Of a stretch of DNA of 50,141 bases, positions 27,841 to 42,754 are shown piece by piece. A program made the translations under genes and the position numbers. The notes beneath the pieces were generated by a model that was not told where the DNA came from, made no database searches, and saw only the letters and a program-made list of their open reading frames with translations. Position 1 is the first letter of the stretch. Each line of letters starts with the position of its first letter. The stretch is from Treponema sp. CETP13 (GTDB lineage: Bacteria; Spirochaetota; Spirochaetia; Treponematales; Treponemataceae), in NCBI GenBank assembly GCA_001885315.1, contig MLPZ01000019.1, forward strand, positions 1-50,141, read 5' to 3'.

Positions 27841-28746
27841 ATGATGAAAGAAAAAAGAGTGAAAACAAAAGTTCAAAAAAGTGAGCGTAAACGTACTATA
27901 ATTCAATTAATAGCTACCGCTTTTTCTAACGGATATGTGGTTGGGTTTTTTAAACATACAATTTTTACTGGTAAGTCTAAGATGTTTTGTGTTCCAGGAC
28001 TTAATTGTTATTCTTGTCCAGGTGCTCTGGGAGCCTGCCCAATTGGAGCGATTCAAGCTGTTCTTGGAAGTAAAAAATTTAATTTTTCGTATTATGTGTT
28101 TGGACTCGTTGCGTTTATTGGCGTTATGTTTGGTCGGATTGTATGTGGCTTTTTATGTCCTTTTGGGTTACTTCAAGATTTACTTTACAAAATACCTGTC
28201 CCTAAAATACACATTCCCAAAAAAGTAGATAAACCATTACGGTGGCTTAAATTTGTCATTTTAGTTGTCTTTGTTATACTATTGCCTATTTTTGCTGTTA
28301 ACCAATTTGGGATTGGTGATCCTTTCTTTTGTAAATATATTTGTCCTCAAGGTGCTCTTGAAGGGGGAATTCCTCTTGTAAGTTCTATTCCTAGTTTACG
28401 TGAAAACTTAGGATTTTTATTTAATTGGAAGATGGGCTTGTTAGCTTTTTTTATTCTTTCTTCAATGTTTATTTATCGCCCATTTTGTAAATTTGTTTGT
28501 CCATTAGGTGCTTTTTATGCGCTTTTTAATAAGATAAGTTTTTTTCAAATGCATGTGGATATGACAAAATGTATTCATTGTGGGAAATGTGAAAAAACGT
28601 GCGATATGAATGTTGAAGTGCTCAAAAATATTAATAGTATGGAATGTATCCGTTGTGGCAAATGTAAATCAGTTTGCCCTACAGGTGCAATTAGTAGTGG
28701 ATTTAAAAACGCAGGGATTAAATATCATAAAATAGATCAAAAATAA
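27841..28746 (+). CDS. NapH-like 4Fe-4S membrane protein
   Basis: 301 residues with about five membrane segments. Four Cys-x3-Cys-Pro type motifs lie along the membrane part (SCPGALGACPIGA, CGFLCPFG, CKYICPQG, CKFVCPLG) and two ferredoxin-type [4Fe-4S] motifs lie at the C-terminus (CIHCGKCEKTCDM and CIRCGKCKSVCPTGA). This is the polyferredoxin layout of NapH, CcoG and related proteins that move electrons at the membrane. AGGAG precedes a double ATG; the second, at 27844, has the more usual spacing. With the AhpD-like protein and CxxC peptide it probably forms a transmembrane redox module. Confidence 0.88.
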   Translation: MMKEKRVKTKVQKSERKRTIIQLIATAFSNGYVVGFFKHTIFTGKSKMFCVPGLNCYSCPGALGACPIGAIQAVLGSKKFNFSYYVFGLVAFIGVMFGRIVCGFLCPFGLLQDLLYKIPVPKIHIPKKVDKPLRWLKFVILVVFVILLPIFAVNQFGIGDPFFCKYICPQGALEGGIPLVSSIPSLRENLGFLFNWKMGLLAFFILSSMFIYRPFCKFVCPLGAFYALFNKISFFQMHVDMTKCIHCGKCEKTCDMNVEVLKNINSMECIRCGKCKSVCPTGAISSGFKNAGIKYHKIDQK

Positions 28747-29813: not shown

Positions 29814-30719
29814 TTAATCCGCTAGGGTAGTTGTTTTTGCTTTTTTTATTGTTTTATCTAAAGCACATACAATAGACATTTTATCTACATGTAATTCGTT
29901 GGCAATTAGTTGACATTTTGTAAGTAACAAGTAGTACAGAGATTTGCGAGGAGTTTCACTTAAGCTTTCATAATTACCTTGTCCTTTTGCAATAACCATA
30001 TCTACAGTGTTATATAAGTTTTTGAATTCTTCTGAGCAACGATCTATTACGGTTCCAAGAGAACCATCACCATTTTCAACTATAGTTGAAAAATCTTGCA
30101 TATGAACTTGTAATGCATCGCCTAATATTACATCATTTACAGCTGGTTTACCTCGAACTCCATAAAAAATTTGTATTGACGGATACTGTTTTTTTATTGT
30201 TTGAATAAAAAGTTTATCAAATACTATTTCTCCACAATTATCTCCAAGATATAGTACTGTTTTGCTCTTTGATAAATCGGACAATAATTGTTCTGAGTTG
30301 TCTATGCCAAATGGAGTATTCTCTATTGTTTTAATTGACTCCAATAATTCGTCAATCGAAAAATTTCTTTGTATAGCAAGATCTAACATGTTTCCTAAAA
30401 TGGCTGTTGCTAATGCTGTTTTTAATGGATTTTTTGAATTTTGAATTGTTTTTTTTAGTTCAGGAACATAGGTTAAAAACTTTTGGTTATATTTTTTTCT
30501 AATTTCTTTATATAAATCTCGTCCGTCAAAATGACTAAGAAATGTCTGCCAAACAATACCATATATTTCTGGTGATGTTTTTGTTTTTAAATCTTGGTTG
30601 TAAATTGCATTAAGAACTTCTTTTAGTAAATCAAATCTTTCAGAATCGAGTTTCTCTATTTCAGCAACTTTTTTAACTTGATGGAGAATACAATTAGCAC
30701 ATTCTAATGCAAATTTCAT
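29814..30719 (-). CDS. DUF89 / ARMT1-family metal-dependent phosphatase
   Basis: 301 residues. The N-terminal CxxC (Cys7 and Cys10) and the metal-site motifs LGDNCGEIVFD, RGKPAVNDV and KGQGNYESLSE identify the prokaryotic DUF89 group. Family members are metal-dependent phosphatases thought to remove damaged or excess sugar phosphates (house-cleaning), and some act on fructose or sedoheptulose phosphates. GAGGT lies ten bases before the ATG. A striking palindrome sits in its promoter region. It is followed on the same strand by the AEC gene, but that has its own promoter. Confidence 0.88.
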   Translation of the reverse strand: MKFALECANCILHQVKKVAEIEKLDSERFDLLKEVLNAIYNQDLKTKTSPEIYGIVWQTFLSHFDGRDLYKEIRKKYNQKFLTYVPELKKTIQNSKNPLKTALATAILGNMLDLAIQRNFSIDELLESIKTIENTPFGIDNSEQLLSDLSKSKTVLYLGDNCGEIVFDKLFIQTIKKQYPSIQIFYGVRGKPAVNDVILGDALQVHMQDFSTIVENGDGSLGTVIDRCSEEFKNLYNTVDMVIAKGQGNYESLSETPRKSLYYLLLTKCQLIANELHVDKMSIVCALDKTIKKAKTTTLAD

Positions 30720-31166: not shown

Positions 31167-32402
31167 TTATGCAAACATAATAACTAATTTTGTGGCCAAT
31201 ACAATTGCAACTAAAGCAATTGGATAGGTTGTTGCGTATGCAGATGCAACTTCGTCTGTACCAGCTGTTTGAATAAGAGTGCCAAGAGCTGGAGTGCTTG
31301 TCATTCCCCCCGTTATAGAACCTAAATTGTTAAATATTTCAAGTTTAAATGCATATTTAGCAATTAAAAATCCTGCAATCATTGGAACGCAAGTTAGTAT
31401 TGCTCCGTATATAAAATACGAAACTTTTACGTTAGCAATAAAGTTAACACCCCCGGGAACTCCTGCACCTATTAAGAATAAAACTAGTCCGAGTTCACGA
31501 AAAAAGTTTAATGATTCTTTTGGCATACGGCAGTCAATACGTCCAACATGCTGGAAATGACCAATTATTAAACCTGCAATTAACGTTCCTCCTGATTTAC
31601 CAAGAGAAAAGTTAATACCAGGTATTTTTATTGCTCCGATTAAGCATCCCAGTGCAATTGCTAAAAAAAATGGGAAAAATCCAAATTTATCAAGTTTTAT
31701 AAGATTTCCTTTTGGAGTAGGAATCTTTACAGCACTGGCGGCTACAAAACTTTCTCTTTCTGCCTTTATATCTATTTTTAGAATTTTAGGAATGATTTGA
31801 ACAAAAAGTACTACTCCTAAAATACCAAAGATATAAGCAATACCATATCCTGCAACAAGTTGATCTGGATCTCGCAAAGCTCCAGTTGAAGAAACTGTTC
31901 CAGCTACAGCGGCAGCAGCTTCTTTTGCAGAGGCCAAACCAGGGGTACTGGTAAGTCCTCCGGTCATTAACCCTACTGCCATTTCTGGAGAAAGGTTTTT
32001 GTCTAGATGCAAAAATAGTAATGCTGTTATTGAACCGAGTGCAATAATAATAATTCCGTTTAATAAATAAACAATAGAACTTTTATTCATTGTGCGAAAG
32101 AACTTTGGTCCTGCAATAAGTCCAACTGCTGTGACAAAAAGAGCTGTTCCTAAGCCTGAAATCAGACTGAACTTAGATTTTATAGCAGCATCAAATAATA
32201 CTATTTTTGTATTTCCAATACTAAACTCAGGTACATAGCTGACCAAGATGCCCCAAATAAGGGCAACAAGCAGTACTCCGGCTGTTCCTAAAGAAATACC
32301 TTTTATACTGAATCCGCCAACTATGTATCCAAGTGCGGCTATAGCAAATACTACAAAATAAATTGAAAGAGCTGAATTAGCTACACCTGCGAAATATGAC
32401 AT
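31167..32402 (-). CDS. AspT/YidE-type dicarboxylate or amino-acid exchanger, no RCK domains
   Basis: 411 residues, ten or more membrane segments. The two internal halves each carry the family signature: GGLTSTPGLASA in the first and GGMTSTPALGTL in the second, as in aspartate:alanine exchangers and YidE/YbjL. In YidE-type proteins two TrkA-C (RCK) domains lie between the halves; here only a short hydrophilic linker (about 205-235) is present. Its location inside a malate-fumarate-succinate operon makes fumarate, malate, aspartate or succinate the likely cargo, for instance a fumarate or aspartate in / succinate out exchange. Its ATG overlaps the stop codon of the flavoprotein gene by one base. 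Confidence 0.78.
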   Translation of the reverse strand: MSYFAGVANSALSIYFVVFAIAALGYIVGGFSIKGISLGTAGVLLVALIWGILVSYVPEFSIGNTKIVLFDAAIKSKFSLISGLGTALFVTAVGLIAGPKFFRTMNKSSIVYLLNGIIIIALGSITALLFLHLDKNLSPEMAVGLMTGGLTSTPGLASAKEAAAAVAGTVSSTGALRDPDQLVAGYGIAYIFGILGVVLFVQIIPKILKIDIKAERESFVAASAVKIPTPKGNLIKLDKFGFFPFFLAIALGCLIGAIKIPGINFSLGKSGGTLIAGLIIGHFQHVGRIDCRMPKESLNFFRELGLVLFLIGAGVPGGVNFIANVKVSYFIYGAILTCVPMIAGFLIAKYAFKLEIFNNLGSITGGMTSTPALGTLIQTAGTDEVASAYATTYPIALVAIVLATKLVIMFA

Positions 32403-34021
32403 TATTTTGCTTCAAACCTCGGATTTCCATGTGTATATGTTGGCAAAAGCATTGGTGATACTTCGTCTCCAGTAATTCCTGCTGCTTTTCGCTCTGATGA
32501 AAATTTATTTACATGCTCGAGGGAAAGTTTTCCTATTTTTGTGTTTTTTGCGGCAGCTGCAGCAGCTTTACCTGCATCACGACCGAAAACAATTATATCT
32601 AACAAGGAGTTCCCCATAAGTCTGTTTCGACCGTGGATTCCGCCAACTGCTTCACCTGCAACAAAGAGGTTCTGTACGCTAGACATACACTCTGTGTCAA
32701 TTTCGATACCACCATTTTGATAGTGAAGGGTAGGGTAAACAAGCATTGGTTCTTTTCTAATATCAATACCATATTTGGCAAACATTCGCATCATAGCAGG
32801 GATTCTTTTTTCTATGGTTCCTTCACCACTAATTTTTTCAATCATTGGGCTATCGAGCCAGATACCAAATCCATGTTGTGTTGGAACACCTTTTTTGCGA
32901 TCGCCACATTCTCTAATAAGAGATGCTGCAGCAACGTCGCGGGTTTCAAGAGGATTCATAAAGACTTCTCCATCAACATTTACAAGTTTTGCACCAAGAG
33001 AGCGTACTTTTTCTGTTACTAAAGCACCAAAAATTTGTTCAGGAAAAGCTACTCCAGTAGGATGATATTGCAATGTATCTTGATACAAAAGTTTTGCACC
33101 TGCGCGATAAGCAAGGACTAAACCATCTGCAGTTGCGCCATAGTGATTTGTGGTAGGAAATCCTTGGTAATGCATACGTCCAGCCCCACCTGTTGCAATA
33201 ATTACTGTTTTTGCTTTTGCAATAGTAATTTCTTGTGTTTCCATGTTTAGAAGAACAGCTCCTGCTGCTTTTCCGGTTTCATCCAAGATAATTTCAATAG
33301 CAGAAGTAAATTCAACCATTTTAATGCCTTGGTTTTGTGCTTCATCTCGAATAGTACGCATAATTTCAGCACCAGAATAATCTTTTGCAGCATGCATTCT
33401 TTTTCGGGATGTACCACCACCATGGGTTGTAATCATTGTTCCATTTTTGTCTTTATCAAATTCAACACCTAAATCATTTAGCCATTTTATAGCCTCTGGA
33501 GCTTCGGTAACAAGTTTTGCAACAAGTTCTTTCTTTGCTGCAAAGTGTCCTCCACCGTAAGCATCTAAAAAGTGTTGTGCTGGAGAGTCGTTAGGTTTAT
33601 CGGCTGCTTGGATACCCCCTTCTGCCATCATGGTATTAGCATCACCATGGCGAAGTTTGGTTACCATCATAACCTTTGCACCTGCTTTATTAGCTTCAAG
33701 TGCTGCTGAAGTTCCAGCTCCACCACCACCAATAACAAGAACATCGACATCATAGTCAACCCGGTCAAGTTTTACGTCTTCAGGTTTTACACGACCATTA
33801 GCTTGTAAAATTGTAGCCAATTCTAAAGGAGCTTTTTCTCCTTTATTTGGTCCAATTTTAAGGTTTGTAAATTGTGATTTTATATAATCTGGATGATAGG
33901 TTTCGAGAAGTTTATCTTTTTCTTCTGCACTCATACGTTTAGGATCCATAGGAGTGTTCTTATCCCTATTTGCTTCAACTTTTTTCATCGAATCAAGCAT
34001 TGCTTTTGAATATACTGCCAT
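32402..34021 (-). CDS. fumarate reductase / succinate dehydrogenase-type flavoprotein subunit
   Basis: 539 residues. An N-terminal extension of about 90 residues precedes the FAD-binding VLVIGGGGAGTSAA. The dicarboxylate site of the family is intact: HPTG with His320, the catalytic-type Arg361 in ETRDVAA, His433 in LHYQNGG and Arg467 in GRNRLMGNSL. The sequence stops soon after the final FAD-binding segment (VFGRDAG), so most of the C-terminal helical domain of FrdA is missing. It should reduce fumarate to succinate using FAD. The partner is the iron-sulfur subunit encoded ten bases upstream. No membrane anchor gene is present, so the enzyme is soluble. Whether FAD is covalent cannot be read here. 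Confidence 0.88.
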   Translation of the reverse strand: MAVYSKAMLDSMKKVEANRDKNTPMDPKRMSAEEKDKLLETYHPDYIKSQFTNLKIGPNKGEKAPLELATILQANGRVKPEDVKLDRVDYDVDVLVIGGGGAGTSAALEANKAGAKVMMVTKLRHGDANTMMAEGGIQAADKPNDSPAQHFLDAYGGGHFAAKKELVAKLVTEAPEAIKWLNDLGVEFDKDKNGTMITTHGGGTSRKRMHAAKDYSGAEIMRTIRDEAQNQGIKMVEFTSAIEIILDETGKAAGAVLLNMETQEITIAKAKTVIIATGGAGRMHYQGFPTTNHYGATADGLVLAYRAGAKLLYQDTLQYHPTGVAFPEQIFGALVTEKVRSLGAKLVNVDGEVFMNPLETRDVAAASLIRECGDRKKGVPTQHGFGIWLDSPMIEKISGEGTIEKRIPAMMRMFAKYGIDIRKEPMLVYPTLHYQNGGIEIDTECMSSVQNLFVAGEAVGGIHGRNRLMGNSLLDIIVFGRDAGKAAAAAAKNTKIGKLSLEHVNKFSSERKAAGITGDEVSPMLLPTYTHGNPRFEAK

Positions 34022-34030
34022 AATTATCTC

Positions 34031-34735
34031 CTATTTCTCAATTTCACGATTGTTATAATCTTTTTTAATTTCTTCAACAGGTTCTGACATAATTGCGTCC
34101 ATGTCGTTTTTATATAAACCATCAAGAATGTCTTGAACACGTTTTTCTAAGTGATCAGATTTTGGTGCAATGTATTTACCGTTTAATCGTCGTGCTAATA
34201 AAGCTACCTGATTGTGAGAAATTCCTGCTGGGCAACGTGATGAACAAATACCGCACATTACACAGTCAAAAGATTCTTCGGCGCATTTTTCAAACTCGCC
34301 ACGTTGAGCATATGCAATGTATTGCATAACGTTTATATCTTGTGGACAAGCTTTTGTACAGGCATTACAACCTACACAAGAGTAAATTTCTGGATAGAGT
34401 TGCATCATAATTTGCTGTGTAGGTTTAGCGTTTTCAATGTTAAAAACACGTTTATCCATAGGAAAGAAAGGAAGTGTTGCAATGTACATTCCTTCTTCTA
34501 CTTGTTGCTGGCAAGCAAGGCATGTTTTAAGTTCATTTTCACCTTTTATACGGTAAATAGTTGCACAAGCACCACAAAATCCATTACGACATCCAACTCC
34601 GCGTACTAGTTTATAACCTGCATATTCCATTGCGGTCATTATTGTTAGGGAATTAGGAACAGCATATTCTTTACCCATTATAAAAACGTGTACTTTTTCT
34701 TCATTTTCAATATCATTTGTCTTTTTTTCAGACAT
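34031..34735 (-). CDS. iron-sulfur subunit of a soluble fumarate reductase (TfrB/SdhB-like)
   Basis: 234 residues. The N-terminal plant-type [2Fe-2S] domain has Cys49, 54, 57 and 72. The C-terminal domain has two full four-Cys motifs, CVGCNACTKACP (120-131) and CVMCGICSSRCP (158-169), so two [4Fe-4S] clusters. Quinone-linked SdhB/FrdB instead has one [4Fe-4S] and one [3Fe-4S] near the quinone. The pattern resembles the iron-sulfur part of methanogen thiol:fumarate reductase TfrB, but the CCG domain of TfrB is lacking; HdrB in the same operon supplies such domains. AAGGAG precedes the ATG. It likely carries electrons from Hdr-Flx to the flavoprotein. Confidence 0.88.
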   Translation of the reverse strand: MSEKKTNDIENEEKVHVFIMGKEYAVPNSLTIMTAMEYAGYKLVRGVGCRNGFCGACATIYRIKGENELKTCLACQQQVEEGMYIATLPFFPMDKRVFNIENAKPTQQIMMQLYPEIYSCVGCNACTKACPQDINVMQYIAYAQRGEFEKCAEESFDCVMCGICSSRCPAGISHNQVALLARRLNGKYIAPKSDHLEKRVQDILDGLYKNDMDAIMSEPVEEIKKDYNNREIEK

Positions 34736-34753: not shown

Positions 34754-35581
34754 CTAATATTCAGGTGGTAATTCACCAAGTTCATCGAATCTAAATACAG
34801 GTCCGTCTAAACAAACGTATTTATCACCAATATTACATCTACCACATTTTCCGATTCCACATTTCATACGCAATTCCATTGTTGTATATATGTGATCATC
34901 TTCAAATCCTAGTTCTTTTAGAGCCTGAACAGTAAATTTAATCATAATTGGCGGTCCACAAATAAGAATGTATTGGCTTTTATCAGGATTGAGTTCGGTA
35001 ACATACGAAGGAACAAAACCAACATGGCCATCCCAGCCTTCTTGTTCACGGTCAATTGTGATATACGGTGTTATGTTAGGGTCTTTTTCCCATTCTTCTG
35101 TAATTTCTTTGTAGTCAACCAAGTCATCTTTAGATCTTGATCCATAAATTACTTCAATTTTTCCGTAGTTTTCAGGTTTTGCACGACAGTAGTTTATAAC
35201 AGAATGAAGAGGAGCAAGTCCAATACCACCAGCAATAAATAACAAGTCTTTGCCTTTTAATTCGCCTTCTACAGGGAATGGACGCCCATAAGGACCTCGT
35301 ATTGTAATTTCGTCACCAACTTCCAATCCGTGAAGTGCATTAGTTAAGGACCCTGCATTTTTAATGGAGAATTCTTGATATTCTTCAACTGTAGGTGAAG
35401 ATGTAATAGATATCATGGCTTCTGAAATGCCAGGAATTGAAAGTATTGCACATTGTCCAGGCATGTTATCAAAAAGTTTTTTGCCATCTAATCCTACAAC
35501 ACGAAACGTTTTAACATCTGGGGTTTCTTGTGTAATTTTAATAACTTTACCTACGTAAGGTATTAATGCATCTTGTGCCAT
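34754..35581 (-). CDS. flxA: FlxA-type NAD(P)H-binding flavoprotein with C-terminal [2Fe-2S] site
   Basis: 275 residues, ferredoxin-NADP reductase fold related to AsrB and PyrK. The FAD-binding barrel comes first (about 8-100), followed by the nucleotide site AGGIGLAPL and a CGPPIM motif. The C-terminal Cys cluster MKCGIGKCGRCNIG then VCLDGP binds a [2Fe-2S] centre. In Flx-Hdr complexes this subunit oxidises NADH and hands electrons inward. The ATG overlaps the stop codon of the upstream gene by one base and follows AAGGGGG. Confidence 0.9.
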   Translation of the reverse strand: MAQDALIPYVGKVIKITQETPDVKTFRVVGLDGKKLFDNMPGQCAILSIPGISEAMISITSSPTVEEYQEFSIKNAGSLTNALHGLEVGDEITIRGPYGRPFPVEGELKGKDLLFIAGGIGLAPLHSVINYCRAKPENYGKIEVIYGSRSKDDLVDYKEITEEWEKDPNITPYITIDREQEGWDGHVGFVPSYVTELNPDKSQYILICGPPIMIKFTVQALKELGFEDDHIYTTMELRMKCGIGKCGRCNIGDKYVCLDGPVFRFDELGELPPEY

Positions 35582-36678
35582 TATTTATCCCCCTTAATAG
35601 AGTCATCTGCATTGATTGTTTCGATAACTTTAATAATATTGTTATGTGTAGGACATTTTTGCAAACAACGTCCACAGCCTACACAAGCAAAAGTATTTTC
35701 ATATCGTGCTGGGTAGTAAACTAATTTATGCATAAAACGTTGTCTAAATTTTTGATACTGTTGGGTACGAGGATTAGCAGCGGCCATTTTTGTAAAGTCA
35801 GAATACATACAACTATCCCACGTTCTAAAACGTTTAATACCGGTTCCTGTGTCCATATCTTTTATGTTGTAACACATACAAGTTGGACAAACATAGGTAC
35901 AAGTACCACATCCAAGACAAGATTCAGCCATATGTTTCCATGTTTCTGAATTAAAAATTGGATTTAAGTTTTCGTGTGTAAACTTGCTTAGGTTTTGGTT
36001 AGCAAACTTTTGAGAATCCATTACAGCAGTAATTTCATCTTTAAGTTTTTCGACAGGGGCTGTTTCAGCATCCATGTCGGCTCCTGCACTGGTTAATTCA
36101 GCTTTTATAGAATCAAGTAATTTTGTACCTTTTTCTGTTTTTGCTTCGAACCACACATTTCCATCATTCATCCATGTACTTATGTCACCAATAGGAAATT
36201 CTTTACCGTTTCCGTCTTTTCCATTAGAAGGATTAGCAGCGTCAATATCAAATAATTTGCAAAAACAAGTAGGGGCTGCCTCATTACAAGCCATTGTAAT
36301 AACAGTTCCGTGTTTTCTGCGGTTTTCGTAATATGAATCGACAGGGTTTTGATTTAAATAAACGCGGTCTATAAGTGAAAAGGCTTTTGCGTCGCATGCC
36401 TTTACACCAAAGACAACAAAATCTTCTATTTTCTCATGGCTGTCAATAACTTTAAAGTTTTTTGAAGTACCTTTTATTTCATATAAATCTTCTTTTTTTG
36501 GAAAGAAAAAATCTTTTGCGCTACGAACAGTGTTTTGTGCTCTTGAATATTCAACACCTTCTGCCCATTGAGCATATTCTGCTTCGCCATCTTTCTTTTC
36601 TACAGGCATGTATAATGCTTGTTTAGCAGCGATAGCGGCAAAAACATCGTTTAATTTAGCTTCTGATACTTTTATCAT
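35581..36678 (-). CDS. flxB: FlxB-type (AsrA-like) 4Fe-4S protein
   Basis: 365 residues. The N-terminal part resembles anaerobic sulfite reductase subunit A (FVVFGVKACDAKAFSLIDRVYL). Two C-terminal [4Fe-4S] motifs follow: CLGCGTCTYVCPTCMCYN and CVGCGRCLQKCPTHNN. It is predicted to connect the NADH-oxidising FlxA with the other iron-sulfur subunits. It lies between flxC and flxA with one-base overlaps on both sides, implying stoichiometric production. The B/C naming of the two ferredoxin-like subunits is tentative. Confidence 0.85.
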   Translation of the reverse strand: MIKVSEAKLNDVFAAIAAKQALYMPVEKKDGEAEYAQWAEGVEYSRAQNTVRSAKDFFFPKKEDLYEIKGTSKNFKVIDSHEKIEDFVVFGVKACDAKAFSLIDRVYLNQNPVDSYYENRRKHGTVITMACNEAAPTCFCKLFDIDAANPSNGKDGNGKEFPIGDISTWMNDGNVWFEAKTEKGTKLLDSIKAELTSAGADMDAETAPVEKLKDEITAVMDSQKFANQNLSKFTHENLNPIFNSETWKHMAESCLGCGTCTYVCPTCMCYNIKDMDTGTGIKRFRTWDSCMYSDFTKMAAANPRTQQYQKFRQRFMHKLVYYPARYENTFACVGCGRCLQKCPTHNNIIKVIETINADDSIKGDK

Positions 36679-37631
36679 TATTTTTTGCCTCCATGTGATT
36701 CACAGGCTTCGCTTCTTGCAAAAATAATTGATGGATTTGCATCGCTTTCTTTGTAACTTTGAAGTGGTGAATCACCTTCTACTTTTTCGCCAGCCTGATA
36801 ATCGCCATATAGTTCGTTTAAGTCTTTTATAACCTTTCGATTAAGCAAGTGAAGTGGAATATTTTCTGGGCATACACGTGAACATTCGCCACAATCGGTA
36901 CAGCGACCTGCAACGTGAAAAGCACGAATTATGTGGAACTGATTTTCTTCAAAACTGTTAGCAGCAATTCTTTGGTCAACTCCAAGTGTTGGGTTGTCAA
37001 AAACGCATTGAATACAAGAACAAGCAGGGCATACGTTTCGACAAGCGTTACAACGAATACATTTACTTAACTCAGCTCTCCAAAAGTCAAATCTTTCATC
37101 TGGTTGTTTAGATTCAATTTCTGATACTTTATCAAAGCGATGTGCGTTTTGAGCTTCTTTATCAGCAGTTTCATCTTCTGCAACGCCTAAAAGTTCGTCT
37201 TTTACAACATGTGTTTTACCAAGACAAAATTCACAAGGAGCGGCTTCGCCACTTAATGTTCCGTCCTCATTACTTTTTATTTCTTCGTTACAAGGAACAC
37301 CGATTATATAAGTATTCTCGCGTTTTACTCGATATTCTTTTATAAGTTGGTTAAAACTATAGGTATCGTTTGGTTTTAAGAAAGCAAGTATTTTACCCTC
37401 TTTCTTAGTTTCTTCTATTAAGTATTTAGAAAGATTTGCTGCGCAATATTCATTATAAACAAAATTTTTGTCTAATCCGTCTGCACTTGTAAATACAGCA
37501 GGGGTTACATCGTAATCGAATAACCCTTTTTCCCAGCCAATTACACGGTTTACGGTTCCGTCAGCAAGCAACTCTTTTGCACGTGCAATCATTTTTGACT
37601 GCAACTCTGCAGCTGATTTTATATTTTGCAT
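36678..37631 (-). CDS. flxC: FlxC-type 4Fe-4S protein
   Basis: 317 residues. The N-terminal half resembles the F420-hydrogenase beta / coenzyme-binding type of domain (YIIGVPCNEEI). The C-terminal half has a Cys-rich region CIRCNACRNVCPACSCIQC and a second motif CTDCGECSRVCPENIP, for at least two [4Fe-4S] clusters. It is an electron-transfer subunit of the Flx part. It overlaps flxD by 13 bases and flxB by one base, and GGAGG precedes its ATG inside the end of flxD. Confidence 0.83.
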   Translation of the reverse strand: MQNIKSAAELQSKMIARAKELLADGTVNRVIGWEKGLFDYDVTPAVFTSADGLDKNFVYNEYCAANLSKYLIEETKKEGKILAFLKPNDTYSFNQLIKEYRVKRENTYIIGVPCNEEIKSNEDGTLSGEAAPCEFCLGKTHVVKDELLGVAEDETADKEAQNAHRFDKVSEIESKQPDERFDFWRAELSKCIRCNACRNVCPACSCIQCVFDNPTLGVDQRIAANSFEENQFHIIRAFHVAGRCTDCGECSRVCPENIPLHLLNRKVIKDLNELYGDYQAGEKVEGDSPLQSYKESDANPSIIFARSEACESHGGKK

Positions 37632-38095
37632 CGGATATCCTCCAGTTGTTTATTAGGACCTAAGTCGGTAATTTTTTGCACAAACTCGTTCATTACTTTT
37701 CCAAAACGAGCTCCTTCTGCAGCAGAAACCCAGTCTAGCCCAGTTCTATTTCGATCTATTCCTAAATAATCTAGCATACTAAACATGAGTGTCATTCTTC
37801 GGCGTGCATAAAAGTTACCTGTTGTATAATGGCAATCACCAGGGTGACAACCGCAAATAATTACCCCATCTGCTCCCCGTTGATAAGCACGAAGTATAAA
37901 CAATGGGTTAATACGGCCAGAACAAGGGACACGTACAATTTTTACGTCAGCAGGATATTCAATTCGGTTTGTTCCTGCTAAATCTGCTCCAGTATATGAA
38001 CACCAGTTACAGCAAAATGCAATTACTTTTGGTCTAAAAACGCCAGGGGCACTTTCAGGGCCGTGCATTTCGTTTGTTTCTTTAGTTACAGACAT
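37619..38095 (-). CDS. flxD: FlxD / MvhD-like [2Fe-2S] adaptor
   Basis: 158 residues. Conserved Cys of the MvhD family are in FCCNWCSYTGADLAG, VRVPCSGRI and IICGCHPGDCHYTTGN. MvhD in methanogens links the hydrogenase to HdrA; in bacteria FlxD links the Flx NADH-oxidising part to HdrA. The gene overlaps hdrA by ten bases and flxC by 13, and GGAGG precedes its ATG. No hydrogenase subunit lies nearby, which favours NADH over H2 as donor. Confidence 0.92.
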   Translation of the reverse strand: MSVTKETNEMHGPESAPGVFRPKVIAFCCNWCSYTGADLAGTNRIEYPADVKIVRVPCSGRINPLFILRAYQRGADGVIICGCHPGDCHYTTGNFYARRRMTLMFSMLDYLGIDRNRTGLDWVSAAEGARFGKVMNEFVQKITDLGPNKQLEDIRCKI

Positions 38096-40077
38096 AATTG
38101 GTCAACCTCCGCCATGATTTGTTTATTAGAGAATCCTTTTAGATCCATAGCTCCTGATGGACAGGCAACGGTACAAGCACCACATCCAAGACAAACAGCT
38201 GGATTAACCTGAGATACACGTCTAATAATTGTTGTGCGATTAGGTCCACGGAATTCTTTTTCTTCATAAGTAATAGCACCTGCAGGGCATACATTTGCAC
38301 AAGCTCCACAACCATTACATTTCATTTCGTCGCTTTCTGCTACACAAGGGTTAGTTGCGAGTTTGTCTTTAGAAAGTAAGCCAAGAACTTTTGCAGCAGC
38401 ACCAGAAGCCATACATACTGTTTCTGGAATATCACGAGGTCCGGCACATGTTCCAGCAAGAAAAACTCCTGCGGTTGGGCTTTCTACTGGACGTAATTTA
38501 GGATGTGCTTCTACCATAAATCCGTTTGTATCTATAGAAGCATTTAACATTGTAGCTACGGATTGAGCTGTAGGATCTGGCTCCATTGCAGCAGCAAGTA
38601 CAACCAAATCTGCATCTATATGAAGTTGTTTATTCATAAGTAAGTCAGAAGCTTGAATTTTTAATGTACCATCACTAGATGGAACTACTTTACCAATGCT
38701 ACCTTTTATATAGTGAACATTGTAACGCTCAACGGCTCGACGATAAAATTCATCAAAAGCTTTTCCAGGGGCACGAACGTCTATATAAAATACATAAACA
38801 TCTGTGTCTGGATATTTTTCGCGAATCATCATTGCGTGTTTTGCTGTATACATACAGCAAATTTTAGAACAATATTCTTTACCACGACAACTTGTATCAC
38901 GACTACCAACACAAGACTGGAATACAATAGTTTTTGGATGTTTACCATCTGAAGGGCGGAGGAGTGTACCACCAGTAGGGCCGGCAGCATTCATAAGTCT
39001 CTCTAATTCGAGGGAGGTTATAACATCTTTGCTTTGTGAGTATCCAAACTCTTCAAATTTGTCAACTTTAATTGGTTTAAAACCTGTTGACATAACAATT
39101 GCGCCATATTTCTTTTCTATAAGTTCATCTTTTTGAGTATAGTCAATTGCATTAGAAGGGCAGACTTTTTCACAAATACCACAAACACCTTTTGTAAGTT
39201 TTAGGCAAGAGTTTTTATCAATTGCAGCAACATTAGGAATGGCTTGTGCAAAAGGAATATTAATTGCTTTTCTGTTTGCTAAGTTTTCGTTAAATGCATC
39301 TAAAACATTGTGCTGAGGGCATTTTTCGATACAAGCTCCACAACCTGTACATTTATCTTCATCAACAAATCGAGCTTTTTTGTTAATCTCAACTATAAAA
39401 TTACCAACAAAGCCACTAACTTTTTGAACTTCGGCAAAACTAATAATGTTAATATTAGGATGTTGTGCACATTCAACCATTCGAGGTGTCATAATACACG
39501 AAGCACAATCGAGGGTTGGAAATGTTTTATCAAGTTTAGCCATTGTACCACCGATTGTTGTTGATTTTTCAACAATGTCAACGGGGAAACCAGCTTCAGC
39601 AATATCAAGAGCGGCCTGCATACCTGCAATACCACCACCGATAACAAGAGCTCGTTTTTCAACAGGACTTTCGCCATCTTGTAATGGAGTGTTTAGATTA
39701 ACTTTTGCAATAGCAGCACGACCAAGAGCAACTGCTTTTTCAGTAGCTTGAGCCATGTCTTTATGAACCCATGCACATTGTTCACGAATGTTTGCACATT
39801 CAACCAAATATGGGTTTAAACCAGCTTCTTGAGCAGCTTTTCTAAATGTTTTTTCATGCATACGAGGAGAGCAAGAACAAACAACTACACCAGAAAGGTT
39901 TTCTTCTTTTATTTTTTCTTGAACAAGTTTTTGACCTGCTCCAGAGCACATAAACATATAATCTGTTGAATAAACAACACCAGGTTCATTTTGTAAGGTT
40001 TCTGCAACCTTCTTTACATCTACTGTAGCTGCAATATTAGTACCACAGTGACATACAAATACACCAATTCTTCGCAT
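38086..40077 (-). CDS. hdrA: heterodisulfide reductase subunit A (flavin-based bifurcation subunit)
   Basis: 663 residues, full length. In order: N-terminal domain with GVFVCHCGTNIA and CSCSPRMHEKTF; FAD-binding ALVIGGGIAGMQAAL (about 141-155); inserted ferredoxin motif CTGCGACIEKCPQHN; a thioredoxin-reductase-like core with FQSCVGSRD; and two C-terminal [4Fe-4S] motifs, CNGCGACANVCPAGAI and CLGCGACTVACPSGAM. In characterised complexes the HdrA FAD splits electron pairs between ferredoxin and the HdrB side. AAGGAT precedes the ATG. It lies between hdrC and flxD, the classic arrangement. No selenocysteine codon is involved. Confidence 0.95.
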   Translation of the reverse strand: MRRIGVFVCHCGTNIAATVDVKKVAETLQNEPGVVYSTDYMFMCSGAGQKLVQEKIKEENLSGVVVCSCSPRMHEKTFRKAAQEAGLNPYLVECANIREQCAWVHKDMAQATEKAVALGRAAIAKVNLNTPLQDGESPVEKRALVIGGGIAGMQAALDIAEAGFPVDIVEKSTTIGGTMAKLDKTFPTLDCASCIMTPRMVECAQHPNINIISFAEVQKVSGFVGNFIVEINKKARFVDEDKCTGCGACIEKCPQHNVLDAFNENLANRKAINIPFAQAIPNVAAIDKNSCLKLTKGVCGICEKVCPSNAIDYTQKDELIEKKYGAIVMSTGFKPIKVDKFEEFGYSQSKDVITSLELERLMNAAGPTGGTLLRPSDGKHPKTIVFQSCVGSRDTSCRGKEYCSKICCMYTAKHAMMIREKYPDTDVYVFYIDVRAPGKAFDEFYRRAVERYNVHYIKGSIGKVVPSSDGTLKIQASDLLMNKQLHIDADLVVLAAAMEPDPTAQSVATMLNASIDTNGFMVEAHPKLRPVESPTAGVFLAGTCAGPRDIPETVCMASGAAAKVLGLLSKDKLATNPCVAESDEMKCNGCGACANVCPAGAITYEEKEFRGPNRTTIIRRVSQVNPAVCLGCGACTVACPSGAMDLKGFSNKQIMAEVDQLCL

Positions 40078-40089
40078 CTATAGTATCCT

Positions 40090-40476
40090 TTATTTCTTGT
40101 ACTTTCTAAAAGCGCTTACGATTGCCTGTTGTGGCAAATCCGGATCAAGTTTCGATACAAGATCTTCTGCACTCATACGGTTTCCACCTTTTTCACGTAA
40201 AGCAGCATTTCTAATTGTTTCAATAATATTAGCTGGTTCTACTCCACGAGGACAACGTTCGACACAGGCAAAGCAAGAAAGGCATTTGTACAATGATTCT
40301 GATTTTAAAAGAGGTCCAATTTCACCTGTTTCTACCATATATACAAATTCATGTGGATGATATTCCATGTCGTCATAACTAGGGCATGTAGCTGAACATT
40401 TACCGCATCTCATACACTTGTTAGGATTTGCACCACTTTGTGCAATAATTTCATCACGAAGATCGTTAATATCCAT
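40090..40476 (-). CDS. hdrC: heterodisulfide reductase subunit C
   Basis: 128 residues. Two [4Fe-4S] motifs, CMRCGKCSATCPSY and CLSCFACVERCPRG, fill the core, with a helical C-terminus. HdrC passes electrons from HdrA to HdrB. Its ATG overlaps the hdrB stop codon by one base, and hdrA follows after 12 bases. The length is shorter than some methanogen HdrC but has all eight ligands. Confidence 0.93.
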   Translation of the reverse strand: MDINDLRDEIIAQSGANPNKCMRCGKCSATCPSYDDMEYHPHEFVYMVETGEIGPLLKSESLYKCLSCFACVERCPRGVEPANIIETIRNAALREKGGNRMSAEDLVSKLDPDLPQQAIVSAFRKYKK

Positions 40477-41357
40477 TATTTAGCTCCTTTTGCACATGGT
40501 GCATCTTTAACAGAAGCGCTTACACCACTTTTACCATTTTTGAGAGCTTCTTGAGCTTCTTTAGAGCCAAGTGCTGCTGCAAGAATTGTTGTAAAATATA
40601 CAACCGGAAGTTCTGGATGATTTCCATTTGTATTTAAGTTATACAAACAAAGAGGACACGCTGTTACCAGCATTTTAGCTCCCATATCTTCTGCATTTTC
40701 TAAAATCATGTTGCTTCGTTTTACAGGAATTGATTTATCTTCTAAAGTTGTATAAGCACCACAACATTCATTACGTTGAGCGTAAATAACAGGTTCTGCT
40801 CCAACAGCTTTAATAAAATCCTCTATAATTGTAGGGTTTTCTGGATTGTCCATCTGTAATACATCACTTGGGCGTAGTAACAAACAACCATAATAAGCTC
40901 CAATTTTCATATCTTTAAGAGGATTGGTTACTTTTTCGGCAAGTTTGTCAAATCCAACTTTGTCTCTAAGAACTTCGAGAAAATGTATTACGTTTGTTTC
41001 TCCATTGTAAGGTTGTTTTAATTCAAAATCTGAATCACCTTTCATATAGTTGTTAGCGCGTTTTCTCTGGTCTTCATCTGTAAGCATATCATTGTTTACT
41101 TGTTTTAGTACGTTGTGACATGCAGAACACATTGTTACCAATTCTTCGTTGTTGTCTTTTGCTTTTGCAAGTGCTCGAACAGATGACAATTTTGTTGCAA
41201 TTTCATCTTTTCCAATTGGATAAACGCCACCACAACATTGCCAGTTAGGAATTTCTTCTAGTTCTATTCCCAATTTATTTGCACTATACAAACCATATTG
41301 TTCTAAATCCTTAGCTTTATTTTTTAATGTACAGCCAGGATAATAACTAAATTTCAT
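40476..41357 (-). CDS. hdrB: heterodisulfide reductase subunit B, both CCG domains intact
   Basis: 293 residues. The first CCG domain has Cys9 (YYPGCTL), NWQCCGGVYP and MCSACHNV; the second has YYGCLLLRPSD, NECCGAYTTL and ACPLCLYNL. Both CX(n)CCGX(n)CxxC patterns are complete, so both non-cubane [4Fe-4S] clusters of HdrB are expected. In methanogens HdrB reduces the CoM-S-S-CoB disulfide; bacteria lack these cofactors and the acceptor is often unknown. Here the fumarate reductase genes in the same operon offer a candidate acceptor. A short Ala/Lys-rich tail with one Cys follows the last motif. AAAGGA precedes the ATG. Confidence 0.93.
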   Translation of the reverse strand: MKFSYYPGCTLKNKAKDLEQYGLYSANKLGIELEEIPNWQCCGGVYPIGKDEIATKLSSVRALAKAKDNNEELVTMCSACHNVLKQVNNDMLTDEDQRKRANNYMKGDSDFELKQPYNGETNVIHFLEVLRDKVGFDKLAEKVTNPLKDMKIGAYYGCLLLRPSDVLQMDNPENPTIIEDFIKAVGAEPVIYAQRNECCGAYTTLEDKSIPVKRSNMILENAEDMGAKMLVTACPLCLYNLNTNGNHPELPVVYFTTILAAALGSKEAQEALKNGKSGVSASVKDAPCAKGAK

Positions 41358-41377: not shown

Positions 41378-42754
41378 TTAAACCATTTTTTCTGGATGAA
41401 ATACCTCATCAAATTTTTCTTCAGTTAAAAACCCAAGTGAAACACAAGCTTCTTTAAGTGAGATATTCTCTTCGTATGCTTTGTGGGAAGTTTTTGCTGC
41501 TTTTTCGTATCCGATGTAAGGATTAAGCGCAGTTACAAGCATTAGCGAATTATACAAATTATCATGCATTTTGTCTTTGTTTGCTTTTATTCCTACTGCA
41601 CATTTATCGTTAAAGGAAACAATAGATTCTGAAAGTAGTCGTACAGACTGTAAAAAATTATAGGCAATTACTGGCATAAAAACATTTAATTCAAAGTTAC
41701 CTTGAGTTGCAGCCATACCAATTGCAGCATCGTTACCCATAATTTGAACAGCAACCATAGTTACTTGTTCACATTGAGTAGGATTTACTTTGCCTGGCAT
41801 AATAGAAGATCCTGGCTCATTAGCTGGAATGCTAATTTCTCCTAATCCATCGCGAGGACCAGATGCTAGCCAACGGACATCGTTTGCAATTTTCATCATA
41901 TCTGCTGCTAATGCTTTTACCGCACCATGGGCAAAAACAATTTCATCTTTACTAGTAAGAGCATGAAATTTGTTAGAAGCTGTTATAAAATCTTTTCCAG
42001 TTAAATCTGCAATTGCTTTTGCAACAGAAACGTCAAACCCTTTTGGAGCATTTAATCCTGTTCCAGTAGCGGTGCCACCAAGAGCGAGTTCTTTTAATGG
42101 TTTTAAAGCTAATAAAACAAGCTCTCGATCACGTTCTAAAGAGGCTCGCCAACCACTAATTTCTTGAGAAAAACTTATAGGAACTGCATCTTGTAGATGT
42201 GTTCGACCACTCTTAACAATTCCTTCATTCTCTTTTTCTAATTTTATTAAGGTTGCTATTAATGTTTCTACTGCTGGTAAAAGTTTATCTTCGAGTTCTA
42301 ATACTGCAGAAATATGCATTGCAGTAGGGAACGTATCATTAGAAGACTGACTCATATTTATGTCATCGTTTGGATGACAAATTTTAGAGCCGGCAATTTC
42401 GTTTGCACGATTTGCAATAACTTCGTTTGCATTCATATTGCTCTGTGTACCAGAACCGGTTTGCCAAACAACAAGCGGAAAATGATCATTCAATTTACCA
42501 GAAATTACTTCATCGCAAGCTTTCCCAATTGCTACCATTTTCTCTTCTGTCATTTTAGTAGCATTTAAAGAATTATTAGCAATAGCAGCGGCTTTTTTAA
42601 GAAAGCCAAAAGCTTTTGTAATTTCTTTAGGCATTGTTTCAATACCAACACCTATTAAAAAATTTTCATGACTACGCTCTGTTTGAGCTCCCCAGTATTT
42701 ATCTGAAGGTACTTTTACTTCACCCATTGAATCATGTTCAATTCTATATTCCAT
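41378..42754 (-). CDS. fumC: fumarate hydratase, class II
   Basis: 458 residues, the usual length. It has [19 protein letters not shown] (substrate binding), [10 protein letters not shown] with the active-site His, and the SS-loop signature [16 protein letters not shown]. It interconverts malate and fumarate without an iron-sulfur cluster. It sits 14 bases after the malate dehydrogenase gene and 20 bases before hdrB, so it supplies fumarate to the reductase downstream. AAAGGA precedes its ATG. FumC resembles aspartase, but the N-terminal and SS-loop segments fit fumarase best. Confidence 0.94.

Follow-up and report, generated by a model that had tools for sequence, protein, structure and literature searches.

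Introduction

The 'succinate operon' of the succinate producer Pseudoclostridium thermosuccinogenes (CDQ83_RS03365 to RS03315) comprises genes for a fumarase, seven Flx-Hdr proteins, two fumarate reductase subunits and a putative succinate transporter; it is upregulated about 4-fold under CO2 limitation, and ferredoxin coupling or bifurcation has been proposed for it (PMC7282089). In tubeworm symbionts and Thioflavicoccus, a reductive TCA cluster joins tfrAB, named as methanogen Tfr homologues, to flxABCD-hdrABC and korABCD, with a proposal that electrons are shuttled directly (PMC6315080).

Other known systems share parts of this arrangement. HdrABC-FlxABCD of Desulfovibrio vulgaris was reportedly tied, in 2015 work by Ramos and colleagues, to ethanol metabolism and not to fumarate reductase genes. 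Methanogen TfrAB is soluble and quinone-free, with a CCG half fused to TfrB, and takes its electrons from the CoM and CoB thiols. The E-type SdhABE and the 8-methylmenaquinol:fumarate reductase MfrABE are quinone-linked and have a separate CCG electron partner.

Here we describe an operon from a gut spirochaete that is an addition to the already described Flx-Hdr-linked type of fumarate reductase. We add a census of this type, a separate lineage for its iron-sulfur subunit, a prediction of non-covalent FAD, and a genome in which quinone genes were not detected.

Results

A fumarase-Hdr-Flx-Frd-transporter operon in a gut treponeme

The window analysed is the whole 50,141-nt stretch of contig MLPZ01000019.1 from Treponema sp. 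CETP13, a gut bacterium of the Treponema family (Spirochaetota), whose 2.54 Mb genome (99.87% complete) was also searched. The operon lies on the minus strand with intergenic gaps of -13 to +20 bp, as in one transcription unit, and its genes follow in this order:

41378..42754, minus strand: first gene of the operon (ORF), its product read from the sequence as a putative class II fumarase, malate to fumarate
40476..41357, minus strand: HdrB, two CCG domains whose ten conserved Cys would ligate two non-cubane clusters (domain models)
40090..40476, minus strand: HdrC, two [4Fe-4S] sites (domain models)
38086..40077, minus strand: HdrA, FAD protein with many [4Fe-4S] sites, the expected bifurcation site (HdrA2 model NF040770, 786 bits)
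37619..38095, minus strand: FlxD, MvhD-type [2Fe-2S] linker subunit (PF02662 FlpD, E 5.8e-52)
36678..37631, minus strand: FlxC, 4Fe-4S dicluster protein (domain models; position as in FlxABCD)
35581..36678, minus strand: FlxB, HydB/AsrA-like 4Fe-4S protein (PF17179, E 5e-31; sulfhydrogenase beta models)
34754..35581, minus strand: FlxA, FAD/NAD(H)-binding, HydG/AsrB-like, predicted entry point of NADH electrons (PF00175 NAD_binding_1, E 1.7e-17; PF10418)
34031..34735, minus strand: FrdB-like subunit, one [2Fe-2S] and two four-Cys [4Fe-4S] sites (ORF, Cys count, homologue alignment, domain and structure comparison)
32402..34021, minus strand: FrdA-like flavoprotein of fumarate reductase, with its FAD predicted to be bound non-covalently (PF00890, E 3.6e-70; active-site residues; structure model with PDB match 1kf6_A)
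31167..32402, minus strand: AspT/YidE-family transporter, probable succinate exporter (PF06826, E 5.8e-62)

Among the operon proteins, transmembrane segments are predicted for the transporter only, and its AspT (AAEx) family contains the Corynebacterium succinate exporter SucE1 (PMC9527358). The fumarase has an 83-84% identical homologue at the equivalent position in relatives. Neither the ten CCG Cys of HdrB (63/63 sequences) nor the eight Cys of HdrC (64/64) vary. Two neighbouring genes of the window lie outside the operon: one for a membrane protein with NapH/NosR-like 4Fe-4S motifs (27841-28746) and, just downstream of the operon, one for a DUF89/ARMT1-like protein (29814-30719).

Judged from the published description, the P. 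thermosuccinogenes operon matches the window operon in gene content and order, although the two organisms belong to different phyla. The seven subunit types shared with D. vulgaris HdrABC-FlxABCD are all encoded in one operon here. As described, the tubeworm symbiont and Thioflavicoccus cluster resembles the window in pairing fumarate reductase genes with Flx-Hdr.

The gene order is conserved in gut Clostridia and Treponema

A scan of named genomes gave at least 575 relatives, of which the 80 nearest were kept. Nearly all of these best 80 of at least 575 come from gut Clostridia (Ruminococcus, Blautia, [Clostridium] asparagiforme and others) and Treponema; the P. thermosuccinogenes strain, whose FrdB/FrdA genes are CDQ83_RS03325-20, is not among them. 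Other Clostridia in the set are 69-76% identical. As far as the contigs reach, all 80 loci keep the gene order of the window, with FrdB-FrdA after the Flx/Hdr genes. The full HdrBCA-FlxDCBA block precedes FrdB-FrdA in every locus holding both HdrA and HdrB (60/60); the contigs of the remaining 20 end before the missing Hdr/Flx genes. Fumarase is the first gene in 55 of the 80 loci. Of the 58 with sufficient downstream sequence, 44 have the transporter, which both Blautia loci lack. One of the nearest loci lies on an 'uncultured Treponema' contig (CALXOI010000040.1).

Four distant members (L046 to L049; 43-51% identical) vary in gene content. L047 carries FlxCBA-FrdBA, and Hdr-Flx genes are present in L048. 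L046 (2451-10350) has FrdAB and HdrBCA without Flx; its neighbour is an aldehyde ferredoxin oxidoreductase-like gene, and another donor may serve the same Hdr-Frd module there. L049 (2-1992) has FrdA-FrdB in reversed order, near a 2-hydroxyacyl-CoA dehydratase activator-like gene and with no Hdr/Flx gene on its 9-kb contig; it may use another donor or substrate. Since L046 lacks Flx and the short L049 contig has no nearby Hdr/Flx, other donors can probably serve FrdAB, a point against the bifurcating reading given below.

The FrdB-like subunit is a separate lineage

The FrdB-like ORF (34031-34735, minus strand) has an ATG start and encodes 234 aa. A direct count places Cys at 49, 54, 57, 72, 75, 120, 123, 126, 130, 151, 158, 161, 164 and 168, in agreement with the first-pass annotation, which had reported two four-ligand C-terminal motifs at 120-130 and 158-168. 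Both motifs (120/123/126/130 and 158/161/164/168) read CxxCxxCxxxCP. Their eight Cys are invariant in 85 homologues, as are 49/54/57/75; the latter are most likely the 2Fe-2S ligands because Cys 72 and 151 vary. These ligands predict one [2Fe-2S] and two [4Fe-4S] clusters in the subunit. Cys 161 is the extra residue relative to a three-Cys CxxxxxCxxxCP [3Fe-4S] site and is found in 85/85, whereas E. coli FrdB has CTFVGYCSEVCP there.

The annotation had further held that quinone-linked FrdB/SdhB keep a [3Fe-4S] site, a generalisation that does not stand. At four loci from other members of the phylum, an SdhB gene followed by an SdhE-type CCG gene encodes two four-Cys motifs, the E-type contrast to the window, and the SdhB-type subunit of the quinone-linked Wolinella E-type enzyme likewise has four plus four Cys (PMC2680327).

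Nor did the proposal that the subunit resembles a methanogen TfrB separated from its CCG half survive comparison with domain models. Methanogen TfrAB is, like the window FrdAB, soluble and quinone-free, and TfrA and TfrB are the best-scoring NCBIfam models for the two window subunits. However, on the TfrB model NF004898 (cut-off 385 bits) the FrdB-like subunit scores 47.1 bits, compared with 161.5 for E. coli FrdB, 124 for E. coli SdhB and 173 for an E-type SdhB, the model thus lying nearer to ordinary FrdB than to the window subunit. On Fer2_3 (PF13085, cut-off 27) it reaches 17.9 bits, compared with 108.4 for E. coli FrdB, 106.9 for SdhB and up to 112 for true SdhB/FrdB; Fer2_4 fits its N-terminal domain about equally (20.8 bits). 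By these scores ordinary FrdB is nearer to TfrB than the subunit is, and on them we rejected the idea of a TfrB half. Domain models gave no CCG match within the 234 aa, so the fused C-terminal CCG domains of TfrB are lacking. That HdrB supplies the CCG half is a fair functional analogy and need not imply descent from TfrB.

In an unrooted tree of 26 rows, with no archaeal TfrB among them, the FrdB-like family split from all 13 SdhB/FrdB rows (100/100), placing it outside the quinone-linked FrdB clade. A TfrB model search of 393 genomes of the phylum gave no above-cut-off match, and hence no archaeal or fused TfrB row is in the tree; most matches were to a Fer4-CCG half only or an SdhB half only, SdhB plus SdhE gene pairs included.

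The predicted structure (mean pLDDT 76.6, pTM 0.53) is good only domain by domain. For residues 12-90 the matches are the [2Fe-2S] domains of bifurcating hydrogenases and of the complex I subunit NuoG (Z about 8); for residues 99-192 they are CODH alpha (Z 10.4) and HdrC (Z 8.2). Foldseek returned E. coli FrdB as the best whole-length match (E 2.9e-4), but with an rmsd of 14 A and a TM of 0.24, a poor superposition that restricts trust to the separate domains; the two proteins share the order of their domains but not necessarily the arrangement. The FrdB-like subunit belongs to a lineage of its own, in which the 2Fe-2S domain is not of the SdhB kind and the dicluster domain is HdrC/CODH-like; the pipeline names 'TfrB' and 'FrdB' on these genes mask this.

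FrdA keeps the fumarate reductase active site

The nearest PDB match of the FrdA model is E. coli FrdA (1kf6_A). The window protein has an N-terminal extension of about 85 aa, and the C-terminal helical domain PF02910 was not detected with domain models. It keeps the catalytic Arg and dicarboxylate-binding residues of E. coli FrdA (H320, T322, T336, E337, R340, R361, H433 and R467; 80-81 of 81 sequences). The position of the covalent FAD-linking His is occupied by Asn129, and Asn is found there in 81/81. Relatives with non-covalent FAD reduce fumarate and do not oxidise succinate (PMC9557727). With Asn at the FAD-linking position of complex II, FrdA should work in the reducing direction only.

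FAD_binding_2 proteins include urocanate reductase, and FrdA scores under the cut-offs of the TfrA (338), SdhA/FrdA (276) and NadB (274) models, as might be expected were its true substrate another enoate. We regard this as very unlikely: the dicarboxylate-binding His and Arg are conserved, a fumarase is co-operonic in 55 relatives, and extracts of Blautia luti, in which frdAB is highly transcribed, reduce fumarate with methyl viologen (PMC12773636). By analogy with the B. wexlerae and B. schinkii loci, B. luti frdAB is probably of the window type.

A second FAD_binding_2 protein is encoded elsewhere in the genome (locus L180, 2716-4500, on contig C3). This predicted lipoprotein also has an FMN-binding-like region and may be a fumarate/urocanate-type reductase outside the cytoplasm; its PF00890 score (310 bits) is stronger than that of the window FrdA. 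It is unrelated to the operon.

No membrane anchor or UbiA gene was detected

The first-pass annotation had noted no cytochrome b or FrdC/FrdD gene in the operon, and had suggested a soluble enzyme that takes electrons from a protein partner. There is indeed no anchor gene within the operon, and genome-wide searches for the membrane anchors Sdh_cyt (PF01127), FrdC (PF02300) and FrdD (PF02313) gave no match, with a positive E. coli control. The genome also has no match to a UbiA prenyltransferase, for which the control was positive in 14/14 reference genomes. Since menaquinone and ubiquinone receive their prenyl chain from UbiA-type enzymes, the cell is probably unable to make quinone; it could still take up quinone from outside. 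These results, together with HdrABC-FlxABCD directly upstream in 80/80 nearest loci as far as contigs reach, support the suggestion of a soluble enzyme with a protein donor. Given the tight operon and the Hdr-Flx adjacency, succinate is likely made without a membrane electron chain.

HdrB scores nearly equally on the SdhE model NF042965 (144.8 bits, cut-off 500) and the HdrB model TIGR03288 (148.1 bits, cut-off 345), below both cut-offs, and E-type SdhB also carries two four-Cys motifs, as would suit a quinone-linked E-type enzyme in which HdrB serves as an SdhE-like membrane anchor. We give this reading almost no credence, as UbiA was without a match, FrdB falls outside the SdhB clade (100/100), and HdrA and the Flx subunits are the obvious alternative donor. 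SdhABE and MfrABE share with the window two four-Cys motifs and a separate CCG partner; unlike it, they are quinone-linked and have a Fer2_3-type 2Fe-2S domain and, in the SdhA partners examined, the FAD-linking His. Quinone linkage is unlikely on genome content, not on Cys count.

A probable NADH:fumarate reductase coupled to ferredoxin

The reading that we favour as probable is a cytosolic FrdAB built onto HdrABC-FlxABCD, forming an NADH:fumarate reductase that probably bifurcates electrons to ferredoxin. From the operon we infer a physical complex in which NADH electrons would enter at FlxA and pass through FlxB, FlxC and FlxD to the HdrA flavin, which probably splits them. One electron would go to ferredoxin and the other through HdrC/HdrB to the two [4Fe-4S] clusters and the [2Fe-2S] cluster of FrdB and on to the FAD of FrdA. 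FrdA would reduce fumarate supplied by the co-operonic fumarase, and succinate would probably leave through the AspT-type transporter. The net reaction would be 2 NADH + fumarate + oxidised ferredoxin -> 2 NAD+ + succinate + reduced ferredoxin.

The reduced ferredoxin could be used by Rnf for ion pumping. A clear RnfC gene lies on contig C5 (40810-42108, 466 bits), and reduced ferredoxin therefore has a use in this cell. A weaker RnfC-like gene (159 bits) on contig C3 (376000-384500) is followed by membrane and ferredoxin genes, a second Rnf-like system.

With all ten CCG Cys kept (63/63), HdrB could be a conduit like the CCG domains of Tfr and SdhE, or could still reduce a disulfide. The latter would fit a scheme in which HdrB reduces a small-molecule or protein disulfide and the thiol feeds FrdAB as a diffusible carrier, much as CoM-SH and CoB-SH feed methanogen Tfr; a DsrC-like carrier is among the options raised for Endoriftia (PMC11636981). 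Such a carrier is improbable here: the genome has no DsrC match, the thiol-oxidising CCG domain of Tfr is absent from FrdB, HdrB is the sole CCG protein found in a genome-wide search, and the strict operon order suits a complex better.

A more serious competitor to bifurcation, if still an unlikely one, is that Flx-Hdr merely relays electrons, so that the whole complex would be an ordinary NADH:fumarate reductase that leaves ferredoxin unreduced. Seven Flx-Hdr subunits, HdrA included, would waste energy on a two-electron transfer that is downhill by about 350 mV from NADH to fumarate, and methanogen HdrA-type flavins bifurcate. H2 effects in P. thermosuccinogenes were also read as ferredoxin coupling (PMC7282089). 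On the other side, Moorella HdrABC-MvhD-MetFV gave no ferredoxin reduction and its bifurcation could not be demonstrated (PMC8578096), the main warning against bifurcation here, and one balance published for B. luti uses a simple NADH-dependent enzyme (PMC12773636). It also counts against the bifurcating NADH:fumarate reductase that we found no biochemistry for any member of this FrdAB-Hdr-Flx type.

Discussion

We tentatively extend the bifurcating NADH:fumarate reductase to a broader proposal, which we hold to be somewhat less likely than not: that the iron-sulfur subunit was assembled separately, from a hydrogenase/NuoG-type [2Fe-2S] domain and an HdrC/CODH-type dicluster domain, outside SdhB/FrdB/TfrB/MfrB descent, and docks on HdrBC. 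Fumarate would then be the high-potential acceptor that lets a bifurcating complex reduce ferredoxin, and this would hold for many gut Clostridia and treponemes. Should an Hdr-type bifurcating enzyme use fumarate in this way, gut anaerobes that form succinate would save energy first as reduced ferredoxin and then through Rnf. Energy would then be conserved in many gut anaerobes without quinone, cytochrome or a membrane fumarate reductase. Were this true, the system would offer a direct test of the enzyme proposed in 2019, and the energy balances for Blautia and gut treponemes would change.
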